From positions 1-64,000 of the forward strand of contig CAJIZZ010000009.1 in NCBI GenBank assembly GCA_905181945.1: DNA of 64,000 nucleotides. The letters run 5' to 3'. The position numbers and the translations under genes are program-made. Source of the DNA: an uncultured Porticoccus sp. GTDB lineage: Bacteria > Pseudomonadota > Gammaproteobacteria > Pseudomonadales > Porticoccaceae. Positions 6,419 to 14,823 of the stretch are shown here, one piece after another. The first letter of the stretch is position 1. Each line of letters begins with the position of its first letter. The notes under the pieces were generated by a model, which saw only the letters and a list, made by a program, of their open reading frames with translations, ran no database searches and had not been told where the DNA came from.

Positions 6419-6898
6419 ATGGGAAAACAGCCAAAAAAAATACAGAAAAACCCGATCATTGCTCAAAATAAAAGAGCTCGCCACGACTATCACTTAGAAG
6501 AAAAATTTGAAGCTGGATTAGTCCTGCAGGGATGGGAAGTAAAAAGTTTGCGGGCTGGAAAAGGGCAGCTAGCGGATAGTTTTGTGTTGCTGCAAAATGG
6601 TGAGGCCTATCTCATGGGTACCCATATAGCGCCATTAAATACGGCTTCAACCCACTATGTCACCAATCCTGGTAGAAACAAAAAACTCTTATTGAACAAA
6701 AAAGAACTGTCTCGCTTATTTAATGCCGTTAACCAAAAAGGGCATACATGTGTTGCGTTATCTATATATTGGAAAGGGCACATTGTAAAATGTGAGATTG
6801 CTTTAGCAAAAGGCAAGCAAGCTCATGACAAGCGTGCCTCCGAAAAAGATCATGACTGGCAGCGCCAAAAACAACGAATCATGCGACACAACGTCTAG
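6419..6898 (+). CDS. smpB: SsrA-binding protein SmpB
   Basis: SmpB binds tmRNA and carries it to stalled ribosomes for trans-translation. The 159-residue product shows [20 protein letters not shown], then [24 protein letters not shown] and the family C-terminus KGKQAHDKR...[11 protein letters not shown]. The second in-frame ATG (6419) is chosen because MGKQPKK fits the family; an ATG two codons earlier (6413) is possible. Neither has a good ribosome binding site. It is divergent from the symporter gene, and ssrA follows 77 nt downstream, so the protein and its RNA partner are adjacent. Confidence 0.96.
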
Positions 6899-6962
6899 TC
6901 TAGCTCGTTTTTTAAATTTCTTGCCCAATAACTTACATCAGATTTGTCGATACCTGTGTTAA

Positions 6963-6968
6963 TATAAT
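6963..6968 (+). promoter_or_regulatory. -10 box of the ssrA promoter
   Basis: TATAAT ends 7 nt before the first base of mature tmRNA (6976), the expected distance for a transcription start there. The -35 element is unclear; TTGTCG (6944-6949) lies only 13 nt upstream, shorter than ideal. Transcription may also enter from smpB. Confidence 0.5.
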
Positions 6969-6975
6969 TTCTTAA

Positions 6976-7351
6976 GGGGGCGTTCTGGATTCGACGCCGG
7001 TTACAAAACCCAAGGTGCATGCCGAGATGGTGACCAATCTCGTTAATCCAAAGTCGCAAACTATTAGTTGCCAACGACGACAACTACGCACTCGCCGCCT
7101 AAGAAACGGTAGGGAGCCATCTGACTGGAGCCGTGCTTGTGCGTCCAGAGTCTTTCGGGGCTATCAGGTGTCATACTCATAAGATCGTGATGAAACTTGT
7201 CTGGGGTAGACTCACTAAAAACTTACTGGAATCGTAATTTACGTACCCTGCCAGCCGGGTTGTGAATTATTAAATTAATGACTGAACTAAGCATGTAGAG
7301 CCTTCGGCAGAGGACTGACGGACGCGGGTTCAATTCCCGCCGCCTCCACCA
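6976..7351 (+). ncRNA. ssrA: Transfer-messenger RNA (tmRNA, SsrA)
   Basis: tmRNA rescues stalled ribosomes and tags the unfinished protein for proteolysis. The 5' end (GGGGGCG, 6976-6982) pairs over 7 bp with CGCCTCC (7341-7347), followed by an encoded ACCA. The tRNA-like T arm contains GGTTCAATTCCC (7327-7338), and the 5' part has the conserved TTCTGGATTCGACGCCGG. The tag frame starts at the GCC resume codon (7070) and reads ANDDNYALAA before a TAA at 7100-7102. This is the tag I recall for Pseudomonas. One piece, not permuted. No convincing rho-independent terminator follows. Confidence 0.97.
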
Positions 7352-7384: not shown

Positions 7385-7750
7385 TTATAGCAAAGATGGA
7401 ATGAGGTAAGCAAAAGTAAGCCCAATAATAAAAAATCCTACTGAAATAAAATAAATAATTAATGATAATTTTTTTGCCTTAGTGCACGCATCCGCTTTTT
7501 TTTCGTCTATAGGGCAAGGCAGATTTTTTGCGCGGTATTGGAGCACTCCAGAAATTACGAGCATCGTAAAAGCACCAATAAATATCTGAGCCTTATATAT
7601 TGAAATAACAACGAGTTGTGGAAATATTGAAAAAAGAGAACTTAGCGCTGCCCCCGCACCAATTGAAACTAGCAACGCAGGTAACGCACAGCAAATAATA
7701 GTTCCGCTACTAGCAAATAAAGATAGGTAGTCTGCTAGCTTATTTTTCAT
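7385..7750 (-). CDS. MerT-like heavy-metal transporter
   Basis: A 121-residue inner-membrane protein with three predicted membrane segments (about 9-35, 45-70 and 95-118). It has the layout of mercuric transporter MerT: a vicinal Cys pair in the first helix (C20-C21, IICCALP) and a second pair in the loop after helix 2 (C79 and C89). It starts 11 nt inside the MerP-like gene, so the two are translationally coupled. No merA reductase and no merR gene are nearby, and the operon is headed by a Cu(I)-type CsoR regulator. The metal moved may therefore be copper rather than mercury; that is inference. Confidence 0.75.
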   Translation of the reverse strand: MKNKLADYLSLFASSGTIICCALPALLVSIGAGAALSSLFSIFPQLVVISIYKAQIFIGAFTMLVISGVLQYRAKNLPCPIDEKKADACTKAKKLSLIIYFISVGFFIIGLTFAYLIPSLL

Positions 7751-8051
7751 TCTCGATCCTAATTTGACTCATAGTGCCAGGAAAAATTTCTATTTTTCGA
7801 ACATCGTAGCCTGCATCATTGATCACTTTCGTAATAAGTTTATTATCAAGCCCATCTTTCGATTCTATAGCGACAAAGTAATTTTCTAGACTAACAAAAA
7901 CATCATCAACGTTATCCGCGGCCCTGAAGCTCTTCTCTATACCTTGTGCGCAAAAAGCGCATACCATACCCAGTACTTCAATTTTTTGAGTCAATGCGTA
8001 GCTATGCACACTGAAAAGTATTATGGCTATTAGAAATATTGTTTTTTTCAT
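7740..8051 (-). CDS. MerP-like periplasmic heavy-metal-binding protein
   Basis: A 103-residue protein with a signal peptide (about residues 1-19, cut near SYA) and one HMA domain. The metal site is GMVCAFC (C31 and C34), the usual GMxCxxC loop. The later INDAGYDVRKI matches the last strand of HMA domains. It probably hands a soft metal ion to the MerT-like protein encoded immediately downstream, whose start it overlaps by 11 nt. It lies 11 nt after the exported unknown protein of the same operon. Confidence 0.82.
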   Translation of the reverse strand: MKKTIFLIAIILFSVHSYALTQKIEVLGMVCAFCAQGIEKSFRAADNVDDVFVSLENYFVAIESKDGLDNKLITKVINDAGYDVRKIEIFPGTMSQIRIENEK

Positions 8052-8062
8052 TAAATACTCTC

Positions 8063-8707
8063 CTAAAATGTATACATGAAATGAAAGGATGCATCTCCAT
8101 CCGTCGATACTCCAACATCCATAAATATGGATTTATTAATCAATCTAAGTGTAGGCGTATATTTAATTTTGTTATTTAGACTATTGATGTTTTTAGTTTT
8201 TAATATGAACCAGGGCTGAATTTCAGTGTACCCTGCTGCATAGAACGAAAAGCCGCCTTCAATTTTGGTTGCATCAAAGTTCTCATGACCAGCTCTTAAG
8301 ACTTGGTGAGAAACCATTCCGTACATTCTTTTGGTCTCATAATCAAACTGCAAGATTGGGCTTAAATAGACATGATGCTCTTTTATGTTATTTTTTTTTA
8401 TGCCTATAAAGCCTGCTCCAGCAAACAGCCATAAATTTGCCTGCGAATTAATAGTATTTTTTCTCATCAATTTTCTTAAATAAAATATTTCTCCTGACGT
8501 TGTGTCATAGCCGTTACCCTTAGCTCTAACAGTCTTTACGCCAAACGACTCCTTAATAGATGAAGCGTAGCTAGACTCAATACTAAAATAATTTTTGCTC
8601 GCTTGAGTCATGCTGGTTGTTGACCCTTTAAAGCTCATCGGTGCTGCATGAATCATAGATTGGTGCGCTGCTAACAGCAAAATAAATATGAAATACAACT
8701 TATTCAT
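8063..8707 (-). CDS. Exported protein of unknown function, possible outer-membrane beta-barrel
   Basis: I do not recognise a family. The 214-residue product starts with a signal peptide (MNKLYFIFILLLAAHQSMIHA). The mature part has many short alternating hydrophobic/polar strands rich in Tyr and Phe, and it ends in FHFMYTF with a C-terminal Phe, as outer-membrane barrels do. There are no cysteines in the mature part, so it is unlikely to bind metal through thiols. The ATG at 8707 overlaps the csoR stop by 8 nt (ATGAATAA), so it belongs to the csoR-merP-merT operon. It may be an outer-membrane channel for the same metal; this is a guess from context. Confidence 0.65.
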   Translation of the reverse strand: MNKLYFIFILLLAAHQSMIHAAPMSFKGSTTSMTQASKNYFSIESSYASSIKESFGVKTVRAKGNGYDTTSGEIFYLRKLMRKNTINSQANLWLFAGAGFIGIKKNNIKEHHVYLSPILQFDYETKRMYGMVSHQVLRAGHENFDATKIEGGFSFYAAGYTEIQPWFILKTKNINSLNNKIKYTPTLRLINKSIFMDVGVSTDGDASFHFMYTF

Positions 8708-9020
8708 GTTTTTCGTCACCAACATACAAAACATTTTTCCCCTTATACAAATTTGTTAGCTCTCGAATTTTTTCTTTCTGAGCATTCTTGTCATTTGACT
8801 GAAAGGCATCAATCACACAGGATTCAAGGTGCTTTTGAAGCATAATTATTTCGAGTGACTGGCAAGCTGAACTCACTGCCCTTAATTGCGTGATAATGTC
8901 AGGGCAATACCTGCCTTCTTCAATCATTTTTTTTATCCCATTCAGCTGACCTATAGCTTTATTCACTCTTGGAATATGTTTTCCATAATCTGGATATTTT
9001 GATTCGCAACAATCTGCCAT
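8700..9020 (-). CDS. CsoR/RcnR family metal-sensing transcriptional repressor
   Basis: An all-helical DUF156 repressor, 106 residues, which leaves DNA on binding metal. Cys39, His64 and Cys68 have exactly the C-x24-H-x3-C spacing of the Cu(I) site of CsoR (Cys36, His61, Cys65 in Mycobacterium), and Tyr38 matches the second-shell Tyr35. RcnR and FrmR types lack the last Cys. The pattern therefore points to Cu(I). The N-terminus also has a CC pair (4-5). It is first in the operon, after a GGGGAAA ribosome binding site and an ATACC/GGTAT palindrome, so autoregulation is likely. Confidence 0.88.
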   Translation of the reverse strand: MADCCESKYPDYGKHIPRVNKAIGQLNGIKKMIEEGRYCPDIITQLRAVSSACQSLEIIMLQKHLESCVIDAFQSNDKNAQKEKIRELTNLYKGKNVLYVGDEKHE

Positions 9021-9047
9021 GGTTTGTTTCCCCTAGTCTAACTAAAA

Positions 9048-9075
9048 TACCTTATACCCCTATATGGTATAGGTA
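9048..9075. promoter_or_regulatory. Probable CsoR operator
   Basis: TATACC (9053-9058) and GGTATA (9066-9071) form an inverted repeat with a 7-nt centre. Outer TACC (9048-9051) and GGTA (9072-9075) extend the symmetry. The C-rich run after ATA and the GGTAT arm resemble known DUF156-family operators. It sits 28-55 nt upstream of the csoR ATG, and on the minus strand a TATAAG box overlaps it, which suits steric repression. Confidence 0.65.
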
Positions 9076-10797: not shown

Positions 10798-11712
10798 ATG
10801 ATTCACATCACAGCCTTTTTAGTTCTTCTAACACTCATCATCACAGTCTTACCAGTAATGGCAAAAAGATCGTCCCAAGAAGGTCCGACTAGTGTTATTG
10901 TCGCGCCTGTCAAAAAAACTATGCTAACTGATCGAGTGGAAGCATTAGGTACAACCAGGTCAAATGAAATGACCTTAATTACAGCCAATACTGCCGAAAA
11001 AGTGACTGCGATACACTTTCAAGAGGGCCAGGTAGTTAAAACTGGCGATTTGCTAGTAACCCTGCGCCTAGATAAGCGAGCTATTTTAGCGCCCTTTGAT
11101 GGTGTTCTAGGCTTACGGGAGGTGAGCGTAGGTGCGCTAGTCCAACCGGGAGACCCCATCACAACAATTGATGATATCAGTATCATAAAAATTGACTTTG
11201 ATGTGCCATCGATTTTCTTGTCGTTACTACAAAAAGATATGCCGATTACTGGCAAAGTAGCGGCTTTCGGCAACAGAGAATTTGCTGGTAAAATAAAAAC
11301 GATAAATACACGAATCGACCCTATCACAAGAACGATCAAGGTCAGGGCGATCGCTTCCAATAAAGATCGAATTTTAAAGCCAGGCTTGCTAATGAAGGTT
11401 GTCATTATGGCGCATGAGCGTCAGGCGCTACTCATACCTGAAGAAGCCCTCATTAAGCGTGGCGAGAAAAATTTTGTATACATCGTAACCAAAGCTAACA
11501 GCCAGCTAAACGCGCAAGAGATTGGGGTTGAGATTGGATCTAGGATACCTGGTGAGATTGAAATTTTGTCTGGGGTAAAGCAGCACGATCAGGTGATCAC
11601 ACACGGATTGTTAAAAATTAAAGATGGCGCTGAAATTTCCATTCGCGCTATAGAAACAGAAAATACTCCATTAGCTGAACTGTTAATACAAAATGTTCAT
11701 GGTGCGCACTAA
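10798..11712 (+). CDS. RND efflux pump periplasmic adaptor (membrane fusion protein) lacking the alpha-hairpin
   Basis: A 304-residue adaptor for the RND pump encoded next. An N-terminal signal/anchor segment (about 1-22) is followed by both halves of the lipoyl domain, the beta-barrel (IKIDFDVPSIFLSLL, then RIDPITRTIKVRA) and the membrane-proximal domain (LLIPEEALIKRGEKNFVYIV). Normally 50-80 residues of coiled hairpin separate the lipoyl halves. Here GDLLVTLR runs within a few residues into KRAILAPFDGVLG, so the hairpin that contacts TolC is missing. There is no frameshift or gap. Borrelia BesA is a known adaptor without this hairpin. The stop abuts the next ATG. Confidence 0.9.
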   Translation: MIHITAFLVLLTLIITVLPVMAKRSSQEGPTSVIVAPVKKTMLTDRVEALGTTRSNEMTLITANTAEKVTAIHFQEGQVVKTGDLLVTLRLDKRAILAPFDGVLGLREVSVGALVQPGDPITTIDDISIIKIDFDVPSIFLSLLQKDMPITGKVAAFGNREFAGKIKTINTRIDPITRTIKVRAIASNKDRILKPGLLMKVVIMAHERQALLIPEEALIKRGEKNFVYIVTKANSQLNAQEIGVEIGSRIPGEIEILSGVKQHDQVITHGLLKIKDGAEISIRAIETENTPLAELLIQNVHGAH

Positions 11713-14700
11713 ATGTTCCTGTCGGATATTTCTGTTAAACGGCCAGTTTTTGCCTCAGTTATAGCCCTACTATTGGTTTCATTTGGCTTGGTTTCATTTT
11801 CTAATCTCTCCTTACGTGAATATCCCGATATTGATCCACCCGTAGTTTCTATCAGTACAACCTACCAAGGAGCCTCAGCTAATATTGTCGAAACTCGTAT
11901 CACTGAAGTAATTGAAGATAGAATTTCAGGAATTGAGGGTATAAAATTTATCTCATCTAATTCATCTGATGGTCGCTCTCGCATCAATATTGAATTTGAT
12001 ATTAATCGTGATATTGAAGCGGCGACCAACGATGTACGTGATCGTGTTTCTGGAGTAATTGACAATTTACCCGAGGAGGCGGAACCCCCTGATATTCAAA
12101 AAGCAGACTCAAGCGATGATGTTATCTTATGGCTCAATCTCGTAAGTGACAGACTCGACACTATGGAACTTACAGACTATGCCAAGCGATATCTGCAGGA
12201 TCGCTTTTCAGTGCTTCCTGGTGTAGCTCGAGTGCGTATTGGCGGTGGGCTAGAATACTCAATGCGAGTTTGGCTAGATCGCACCCAAATGGCAGCACGA
12301 AACATCACATTTACTGATGTAGAAAATGCGCTAATAAAAGAAAACATCGAACTGCCCGCCGGAAGCATTGAATCAATTAAGACACAATTTACCGCTCGCA
12401 TTGAACGCGCCTATCAATCCCCTGAAGATTTTAAAAAGCTAGTTGTTAGCCGAAATAACAACAATGATCTTGTAAGGCTGGGTGATATAGCTCGTATTGA
12501 AAAAAGTGCAATTGAAAATAGAACTTTTTTCCGCGGCAATGGAATACCAATGATTGGAATTGGGATTGTCAAGCAATCGAAAGCGAACATTATCACTATA
12601 GCTCAGGACGCGATTGATTTAGCAAAACAACTAGGGCCTGACCTGCCTCTTGGCATGGAAATCATCAACTCATACGACACTTCAGTCTTTATACGTAATG
12701 CGGTTACTGCTGTATATAAAACGTTATTTATCACTATCAGTTTGGTTATTTTTGTCATTTACATGTTTCTCGGAAATGCTCGTGCAATGCTTATTCCGGC
12801 AATTACGGTGCCTGTATCTTTAATTGCAACATTTACGGTTTTATATGCCTTCGGTTTTTCAATTAATCTGCTGACATTGCTAGCTATGGTGCTGGCAATT
12901 GGACTGGTCGTTGATGATGCTATTCTGGTATTAGAGAACGTCTCTCGACGCATTGAAGAAGGAGAGCCCCCTCTTACTGCAACCTATAGAGGAACTCGTC
13001 AGGTTGGGTTTGCTATTGTTGCCACCTCGCTAGTACTAATCGCAGTGTTTACGCCGATCACTTTTTTGAAAGGAGATCTAGGAAGACTATTCACTGAATT
13101 TGCCATCGCGATGTCTGTCGCAGTAGCATTTTCAACTGTGGTAGCCCTATCGCTTAGTCCAATGATGGCATCTAAAATCTTAAAAAAAACAGAGCCTAAC
13201 CAGCTGGCTAAGAAAATTGATAGCATCTTCGCAAAGGTCAAATCAGCATACTCATCGCTGTTAGAAAAATTATTAGGTTATCGGATGCTAATGATTGGTG
13301 TTTTTGCTGCTGTTGCGGCATTAGCCATTTTATTTATCAATATCCTTCCATCCGAATACGCACCCAAGGAGGATCGTGGGGCATTCTACCTCATAGTCAC
13401 CGGGCCAGAGGGTGCTAGCTTTCAATACACCAAAGAGTACATGGATGAGATTGAAAAACGCATGCAGCCCTATATTGATAGCGGCGAAATCAGCCGCTCT
13501 TTGGTTAGGGCGCCTCGACAGTTCGGCGCTCTCACGAGCTTTAATGACGGCATAGTGATTGCTGTGCTGAATGACTGGAGTAAGCGCCGTTCAGCTAAGA
13601 TTATCATGGGTGAAATTTCTAAAAATATGAGCGATCTTCCTGGTGTTCGCGCATTCCCTGTCATGCGTCAAGGGTTTGGCCGAGGAACCAAAAAACCTGT
13701 TCAGTTTGTTATTGGCGGTGGCACTTATGAGCAACTAGGAGAATGGCGCGATACTCTGATCAAAAAAATAAATCAAAATAATCCTGGATTAATCGATCTT
13801 GACAGCGACTATAAAGAAACGAAGCCGCAACTACGTATTGTTATCGAAAGAGATCGAGCGGATGACCTAGGAGTGAGCGCGCGCACTATTGGTCGCACGC
13901 TAGAGGCTATGCTGGGATCGCGTCGTGTCACCACCTATATTGATGATGGAGAAGAGTATGATGTGATTCTAGAAGGAGAGCGGTCCAAGCAAAATACTCC
14001 GACAGACTTACAAAATATTTATGTGCGATCTGACAGTACAGGGAGACTAATTCCGCTAGGTAACCTGATTACAATTGAGGAATACGCTGATGCTAGATCA
14101 CTAAATCGCTATAATCGTACGCGCGCTATTACAATTGAGGCCGGACTCAAAGAGGACTATTCGCTAGGAGAAGCTCTATCCTTTATGCGCCAATTAGTGC
14201 GTGAGCACTTACCTGAAACTGCTGTCATCGACTATAAGGGTACCTCGCTGGATTACCAGAAAAGTGGCTCATCGTTACTATTTGTTTTCGCCTTAGGTTT
14301 TGCTGTTGTGCTCTTAGTTTTAGCGGCTCAATTTGAGAGCTATATTCATGCTCTAGTGATTATTTTAACCGTTCCTCTCGCAATTTCTGGAGCGCTAGCG
14401 GGGCTATATTTCACGGGAAATTCTTTAAATGTTTATACGCAAATTGGGCTCATTATGCTGGTTGGCTTGGCAGCCAAGAATGGAATTTTGATTGTTGAAT
14501 TTGTTAACCAGCTACGTGATGAGGGAATGGAATTTTCTAAGGCCTTGATCAGAGCTGCAGAAACCCGTCTGCGTCCGATTGTCATGACATCAATCACAAC
14601 TATGGCGGGCTCTATTCCTCTAATTTTATCTTCCGGAGCAGGGGAAGAGACAAGAAAAGCTATTGGCATAGTGATTTTATTTGGAGTTCTGGCGGCAACA

Positions 14701-14823
14701 TTCTTTACCTTATTTATTGTGCCTATTGCTTATGACTTGCTAGCTCGCAATACCGGCTCTCCAAGAGACGTTGAACGTCAACTAAACCAAGAGATAAAAG
14801 AATTAAATCATCAATCGAGGTAG
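11713..14823 (+). CDS. RND family multidrug efflux transporter permease (HAE1, AcrB-like)
   Basis: A 1036-residue inner-membrane proton/drug antiporter. The layout is that of AcrB: helix 1 (about 10-28), a large periplasmic loop (about 30-330), helices 2-6, a second loop (about 550-850) and six C-terminal helices. The proton-relay pair is in GLVVDDAILVLENV (helix 4). The start MFLSDISVKRPVFA and LREYPDIDPPVVSISTTYQGA are typical. It starts directly after the adaptor stop with no gap. No TolC-type gene and no regulator are adjacent, so the outer-membrane partner, if any, is elsewhere. The substrate is unknown. Confidence 0.96.
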   Translation: MFLSDISVKRPVFASVIALLLVSFGLVSFSNLSLREYPDIDPPVVSISTTYQGASANIVETRITEVIEDRISGIEGIKFISSNSSDGRSRINIEFDINRDIEAATNDVRDRVSGVIDNLPEEAEPPDIQKADSSDDVILWLNLVSDRLDTMELTDYAKRYLQDRFSVLPGVARVRIGGGLEYSMRVWLDRTQMAARNITFTDVENALIKENIELPAGSIESIKTQFTARIERAYQSPEDFKKLVVSRNNNNDLVRLGDIARIEKSAIENRTFFRGNGIPMIGIGIVKQSKANIITIAQDAIDLAKQLGPDLPLGMEIINSYDTSVFIRNAVTAVYKTLFITISLVIFVIYMFLGNARAMLIPAITVPVSLIATFTVLYAFGFSINLLTLLAMVLAIGLVVDDAILVLENVSRRIEEGEPPLTATYRGTRQVGFAIVATSLVLIAVFTPITFLKGDLGRLFTEFAIAMSVAVAFSTVVALSLSPMMASKILKKTEPNQLAKKIDSIFAKVKSAYSSLLEKLLGYRMLMIGVFAAVAALAILFINILPSEYAPKEDRGAFYLIVTGPEGASFQYTKEYMDEIEKRMQPYIDSGEISRSLVRAPRQFGALTSFNDGIVIAVLNDWSKRRSAKIIMGEISKNMSDLPGVRAFPVMRQGFGRGTKKPVQFVIGGGTYEQLGEWRDTLIKKINQNNPGLIDLDSDYKETKPQLRIVIERDRADDLGVSARTIGRTLEAMLGSRRVTTYIDDGEEYDVILEGERSKQNTPTDLQNIYVRSDSTGRLIPLGNLITIEEYADARSLNRYNRTRAITIEAGLKEDYSLGEALSFMRQLVREHLPETAVIDYKGTSLDYQKSGSSLLFVFALGFAVVLLVLAAQFESYIHALVIILTVPLAISGALAGLYFTGNSLNVYTQIGLIMLVGLAAKNGILIVEFVNQLRDEGMEFSKALIRAAETRLRPIVMTSITTMAGSIPLILSSGAGEETRKAIGIVILFGVLAATFFTLFIVPIAYDLLARNTGSPRDVERQLNQEIKELNHQSR

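Follow-up and report, generated by a model that had tools for sequence, protein, structure and literature searches.

A four-gene cassette in the genome of an uncultured Porticoccus sp. looks like a so far undescribed means of handling copper excess in abundant ocean-surface bacteria. Judging from the sequences compared, it is conserved among streamlined marine bacteria and more widespread than the window (the whole stretch of 64,000 nucleotides that was analysed) could reveal by itself. We lean towards reading it as a copper-induced tolerance module that uses a MerT-MerP-barrel route and substitutes for the Cu(I) ATPase CopA. No published description of the cassette was found in the literature searched, which covers few subscription journals or preprints.

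Gene content of the cassette

A preliminary description of this region had listed four overlapping or nearly touching minus-strand genes, and all four open reading frames are present within positions 7385-9020. The features are, in the order of transcription:

9055..9069, minus strand: predicted CsoR operator TACCATATAGGGGTA, exactly matching the pattern TAC-X9-GTA and lying some 35 nt ahead of csoR
8700..9020, minus strand: csoR, a DUF156/CsoR-family repressor (PF02583) with the Cu(I) fingerprint Y38-C39, H64, C68 and E87
8063..8707, minus strand: exported protein, predicted outer-membrane beta-barrel (AlphaFold2/Foldseek) of no known family, with a signal peptide at about residues 1-21 and a C-terminal Phe
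7740..8051, minus strand: MerP/CopZ-like periplasmic HMA protein with a signal peptide and a GMVCAFC (CxxC) motif, its NCBIfam scores below cut-off
7385..7750, minus strand: MerT-like inner-membrane permease with three predicted helices, C20-C21 in helix 1, and C79 and C89 in the loop between helices 2 and 3

The csoR stop overlaps the ATG of the exported gene by 8 nt, an 11-nt gap separates the exported gene from the merP-like gene, and the merP-like and merT-like reading frames overlap by 11 nt.

The predicted exported barrel

The exported protein had been described as belonging to no recognised family, and it indeed has no credible match in Pfam or NCBIfam. Its AlphaFold2 model, a confident one (mean pLDDT 82, pTM 0.72), contains 13 strands, and together with the signal-like helix and the terminal Phe this predicted structure points to an outer-membrane barrel, as the preliminary description had suspected; the non-barrel structure that would have spoken against an outer-membrane component did not appear. 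Nearly all Foldseek matches to the model are outer-membrane barrels, the first being the 12-stranded porin KdgM (E 6.8e-5). The motifs RPISY, GDWETRR, YGDLHTW and a C-terminal MYRF typify the relatives of the barrel and are weaker in the window copy.

KdgM/NanC-type porins import acidic sugars. They resemble the predicted barrel in size and fold, but share only 8-9% sequence identity with it and are not part of a metal operon. Another possible comparison is with PcoB/CopB, an outer-membrane barrel encoded alongside copper genes. Here too a barrel accompanies copper genes, by analogy, but the window barrel has no Pfam match to any copper barrel family, and among the Foldseek matches listed there are no copper proteins, the KdgM/NanC type ranking first.

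Distribution and origin

The barrel gene occurs in 31 of the 112 genomes of the window's own family. In its genus the window's genome alone carries it (0 of 16 congeners). At all 31 family loci merP directly follows the barrel gene; merT comes next except where the contig stops, and is usually followed by csoR. Searched with the window barrel as a single sequence, the named genomes gave no match, while an alignment-based scan with the family profile returned 141 barrel relatives, of which 80 were kept. These belong to SAR86, SAR92/Porticoccaceae, OM182, K189A, the PS1 alphaproteobacterium IMCC14465, the sponge symbiont AqS3 and others, and nearly all of the named-genome loci have the order barrel-merP-merT-csoR. 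A class-wide sample added nine cassette genomes from eight other families, and a phylum-wide sample almost nothing more. No barrel relatives were found on plasmids, where a weak MerT match in Variovorax was the only hit, or on viral contigs. Altogether, barrel, merP and merT are adjacent, usually with csoR, in more than 100 loci, and the recurrence of this adjacency rules out a chance grouping.

The order in the window, csoR-barrel-merP-merT, is common to two genomes of another family (loci L139 and L140), and the most distant trios (L168, L169 and L171) have no adjacent csoR. With modest support (88/79), the window MerT is placed outside the group formed by SAR86 and SAR92. The G+C content of the cassette is 35.9%, and no other stretch of this size in the whole window has a lower one (the mean is 41.7, sd 1.7). 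Since the cassette is also absent from the congeners, these sequence features suggest that it was acquired by transfer in this genome.

A tmRNA gene (ssrA) lies at 6976-7351 of the window on the plus strand, with 34 bp between its end and that of merT. The 3' ends of ssrA genes are common integration sites. An att-flanked island at ssrA was considered but is not supported, there being no second copy of the tmRNA 3' end in the window or the genome. The G000 genome is 1.33 Mb long and rated 100% complete, most congeners having about 2.0-2.7 Mb, and this suggests genome reduction.

The regulator and its predicted operator

The window CsoR belongs to the DUF156 family (PF02583, E 1.3e-23, 83.6 bits against a cut-off of 22.8), and its closest solved structures are copper CsoR proteins, with that of S. 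lividans (4adz) at E 5.9e-12. The spacing that had been read from the sequence as typical of Cu(I)-sensing CsoR is exact, C39-x24-H64-x3-C68, and with the second-shell Tyr and Glu the protein has the complete set of residues of the Cu(I)-sensing branch. Among 88 distinct cassette CsoRs, C39, H64 and C68 are conserved to at least 99%, and with Y38 and E87 the range is 98-100%. CsoR repressors are let go from DNA by an excess of Cu(I), so that the genes that they control are switched on at high copper.

The published CsoR operator motif is 5'-TACX9GTA-3' (PMC3902906), and the predicted operator, which lies within the interval 7385-9075, fits this pattern, including its G-tract. In relatives in which csoR is the last gene, the motif sits on the barrel gene instead. 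A site with at least 10 of 12 matching positions was found in 78 of 79 loci as against 22 of 1580 shuffles, a count that overstates the independence of the loci because shuffling does not remove their shared ancestry. In 102 of 121 loci the CsoR-like site contains or touches the in-frame start codon of the barrel gene. A later start would destroy the signal peptide, and the start must therefore lie in or at the operator, which leaves no room for a ribosome-binding site. It is thus likely that in these relatives the message is leaderless from the barrel start. Scans for terminators and promoters gave counts near chance.

The MerP-like and MerT-like proteins

The GMxCxxC motif of the MerP-like protein and the MerT-type architecture of the permease are present, but neither protein reaches the family cut-offs. 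The MerP-like protein matches the HMA family PF00403 under the cut-off (E 3.5e-4) with its GMxCxxC motif intact, and in NCBIfam it is closer to the copper chaperone CopZ (E 2e-10) than to MerP (E 4e-6), all of these scores being below cut-off. Its CxxC is conserved in 100% of 113 sequences. The window MerT-like copy has no match to the Pfam MerT family (PF02411), and the best relative scanned reaches 20.9 bits against a cut-off of 32.9; "MerT-like" therefore denotes a distant relationship. No relative with a solved structure was found. The protein nevertheless has the MerT architecture, with three helices (long ones in the predicted model, which is of low confidence), a pair of Cys in the first helix and two more in the loop, and the four Cys are conserved to 99-100% (n=104).

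Characterised MerT and MerP proteins of mer operons carry Hg(II) inward. The cassette resembles these operons in its small three-helix carrier with a helix-1 Cys pair and two further Cys in the loop between helices 2 and 3, and in the adjacent gene for an exported HMA partner with a CxxC. Unlike them, it has a MerT under the Pfam cut-off, neither MerA nor MerR, control by CsoR, and a constant outer-membrane barrel partner, and it occurs mostly in genomes without CopA. The absence of merA and merR, pointed out earlier for the window, extends to the relatives: MerA over cut-off was found in none of 46 cassette genomes (the window's own and 45 others), so that the homologues show no linkage to merA; the cassette also has no MerR. 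This, and the conservation of a copper-type CsoR with its operator, makes it very improbable that the MerT and MerP homology marks a relict of resistance to mercury or another thiophilic metal, that is, a mer operon that has lost merA; strong conservation across several families is not that of a decaying relict.

A different possibility is that the cassette only sequesters copper in the periplasm, where MerP and the barrel would bind it while MerT equilibrates thiols with no net export. Most MerP relatives have a His-rich N-terminal stretch ahead of the HMA domain, and there is no visible source of energy to drive export, both of which would suit such a role. However, the four fully conserved Cys of MerT argue for real transport, and a single-site binder would have a small capacity. 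We regard sequestration alone as quite improbable.

Relation to CopA and other pumps

Scored with TIGR01511 over cut-off, CopA-type ATPases are present in most genomes sampled. In the window's family, 2 of the 31 genomes with the cassette have one, compared with 44 of the 81 without it (Fisher p 1e-6); in the class sample, which spans many families, the corresponding counts are 1 of 10 and 210 of 264 (p 9e-6). Further cassette genomes have CopA in 2 of 38 cases. The window's own genome has the cassette and no CopA, while 13 of its 16 congeners have CopA and no cassette. The association is weak in the largest genus (about 2/17 versus 7/33), both CopA and cassette are present in G031, G036, G383, G499 and G606, and many genomes without CopA also lack the cassette. 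Streamlining of the genomes and their common descent, and not replacement, could account for the association. Draft incompleteness inflates the absence of CopA, yet the single-contig genomes G450, G695 and CP097973 (G491) also have none. Heavy-metal RND pumps over cut-off are present in 4 of the 46 cassette genomes. In the window, a membrane fusion protein and an RND pump form an efflux pair near the cassette at 10798-14823, the pump scoring below the heavy-metal RND cut-off.

The closest known arrangement with the same control is the csoR-copZA operon, which shares with the cassette a CsoR with Cu(I) ligands, a TAC-X9-GTA operator and an HMA protein of copper-chaperone type. It differs in that the window cassette encodes no CopA ATPase, having a MerT-like carrier and a barrel in the place of the pump, and in that its HMA protein is exported and not cytosolic.

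Proposed role of the cassette

A link to copper and to CsoR regulation, already proposed in the preliminary description, is well supported on sequence grounds. Copper would also be the physiological metal, as indicated by the CsoR ligands with their Tyr and Glu, by the operator, by the absence of MerA, and by one distant locus (L171) in which merT-merP-barrel adjoins CusF, a multicopper oxidase of the copper-resistance type and an outer-membrane efflux protein.

The direction of transport is a separate matter. The same description had considered uptake or relocation. Relocation of the metal across the envelope is possible, whereas uptake fits poorly: excess Cu(I) releases CsoR and the cassette is found mostly in genomes without CopA, which makes tolerance, export or sequestration the better readings. 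Since characterised MerT proteins bring Hg(II) inward, import is nevertheless the main rival, and MerT/MerP homology taken alone tells against export, as does the absence of a visible energy source for it. Copper acquisition or allocation would have copper enter through the barrel, MerP collect it, and MerT pass it to the cytosol or to cuproenzyme assembly, in a habitat very low in copper. The resemblance of the barrel to small passive porins would agree with this, as would the PepSY_TM protein encoded next in many SAR86 loci and the ZnuD-like TonB receptors near a minority, proteins of both kinds being often found with metal uptake. However, a system that CsoR turns on at copper excess is regulated in the opposite sense to uptake, the cassette takes the place of an efflux pump rather than accompanying one, and the homologous trio at L171 lies within a copper-resistance cluster. 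We therefore consider acquisition unlikely.

For the copper-tolerance module that we favour, we propose the following sequence of events. Apo-CsoR would repress the operon from the TAC-X9-GTA operator, until an excess of cytosolic Cu(I) binds C39, H64 and C68 and releases it. The MerT-like carrier, with its Cys pairs in helix 1 and in the 2-3 loop, would then exchange Cu(I) with the CxxC of the MerP-like protein in a thiol relay. MerP and its dedicated barrel would thus take copper out of the cytosol and then out of the periplasm, with the barrel either completing the passage or binding the metal at the outer membrane. In streamlined marine bacteria such a module would stand in for CopA. The outward direction, the lack of an energy-coupled pump, and the passage of copper through or to the barrel are parts of this scheme that we infer. 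In its most specific form, which we put forward tentatively and hold to be doubtful as a whole, the cassette would export copper without an ATPase, by way of the MerT-like carrier, a periplasmic HMA shuttle and the barrel. It would replace the near-universal CopA in the abundant SAR86 and SAR92 and be switched on by CsoR through an operator at the start codon of a message that is probably leaderless.

SAR11 has been reported to lack a CopA-type ATPase (PMC4771312). As streamlined marine lineages lose CopA, the cassette offers a concrete candidate for a copper-handling route in SAR86, SAR92 and their relatives. It also indicates that carriers of the Mer type have apparently been turned to a task other than mercury transport, and in marine metagenomes a MerT/MerP annotation should not be taken as mercury resistance.

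Variant cassettes and neighbouring genes

At L157, L158 and L161, merP/merT pairs occur with other outer-membrane-like proteins and no csoR. L160 combines such a pair and another outer-membrane-like protein with a MerR-type regulator, and L159 has a MerR-type regulator, a PF13557 barrel and DUF411. Because merP/merT pairs recur with other outer-membrane-like proteins and regulators, the MerT-MerP-barrel trio may represent a general route for metals through the envelope in which the regulator can be exchanged.

In many SAR86 cassettes and in L139 and L140, a gene for a PepSY_TM-like membrane protein follows csoR directly (with a 4-nt overlap) or lies close to it (L103, 7660-8319, and 19 other loci); this protein is a candidate fifth component. 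The ZnuD-like receptors were rejected as part of the module, since no more than about a dozen of the 121 loci have one in the vicinity; they hint at another metal in those genomes.

In L041 (6747-7319; same record as L059) two adjacent csoR-like reading frames follow merT, the first of which is a weak match and perhaps a decayed duplicate. L162 (4741-5001 and downstream, genome G018) has a cassette-type csoR standing alone, and near it a merT remnant that carries a stop, apparently a decaying second copy. In L170 a MAPEG-family gene (6872-7294) is inserted between merP and merT.
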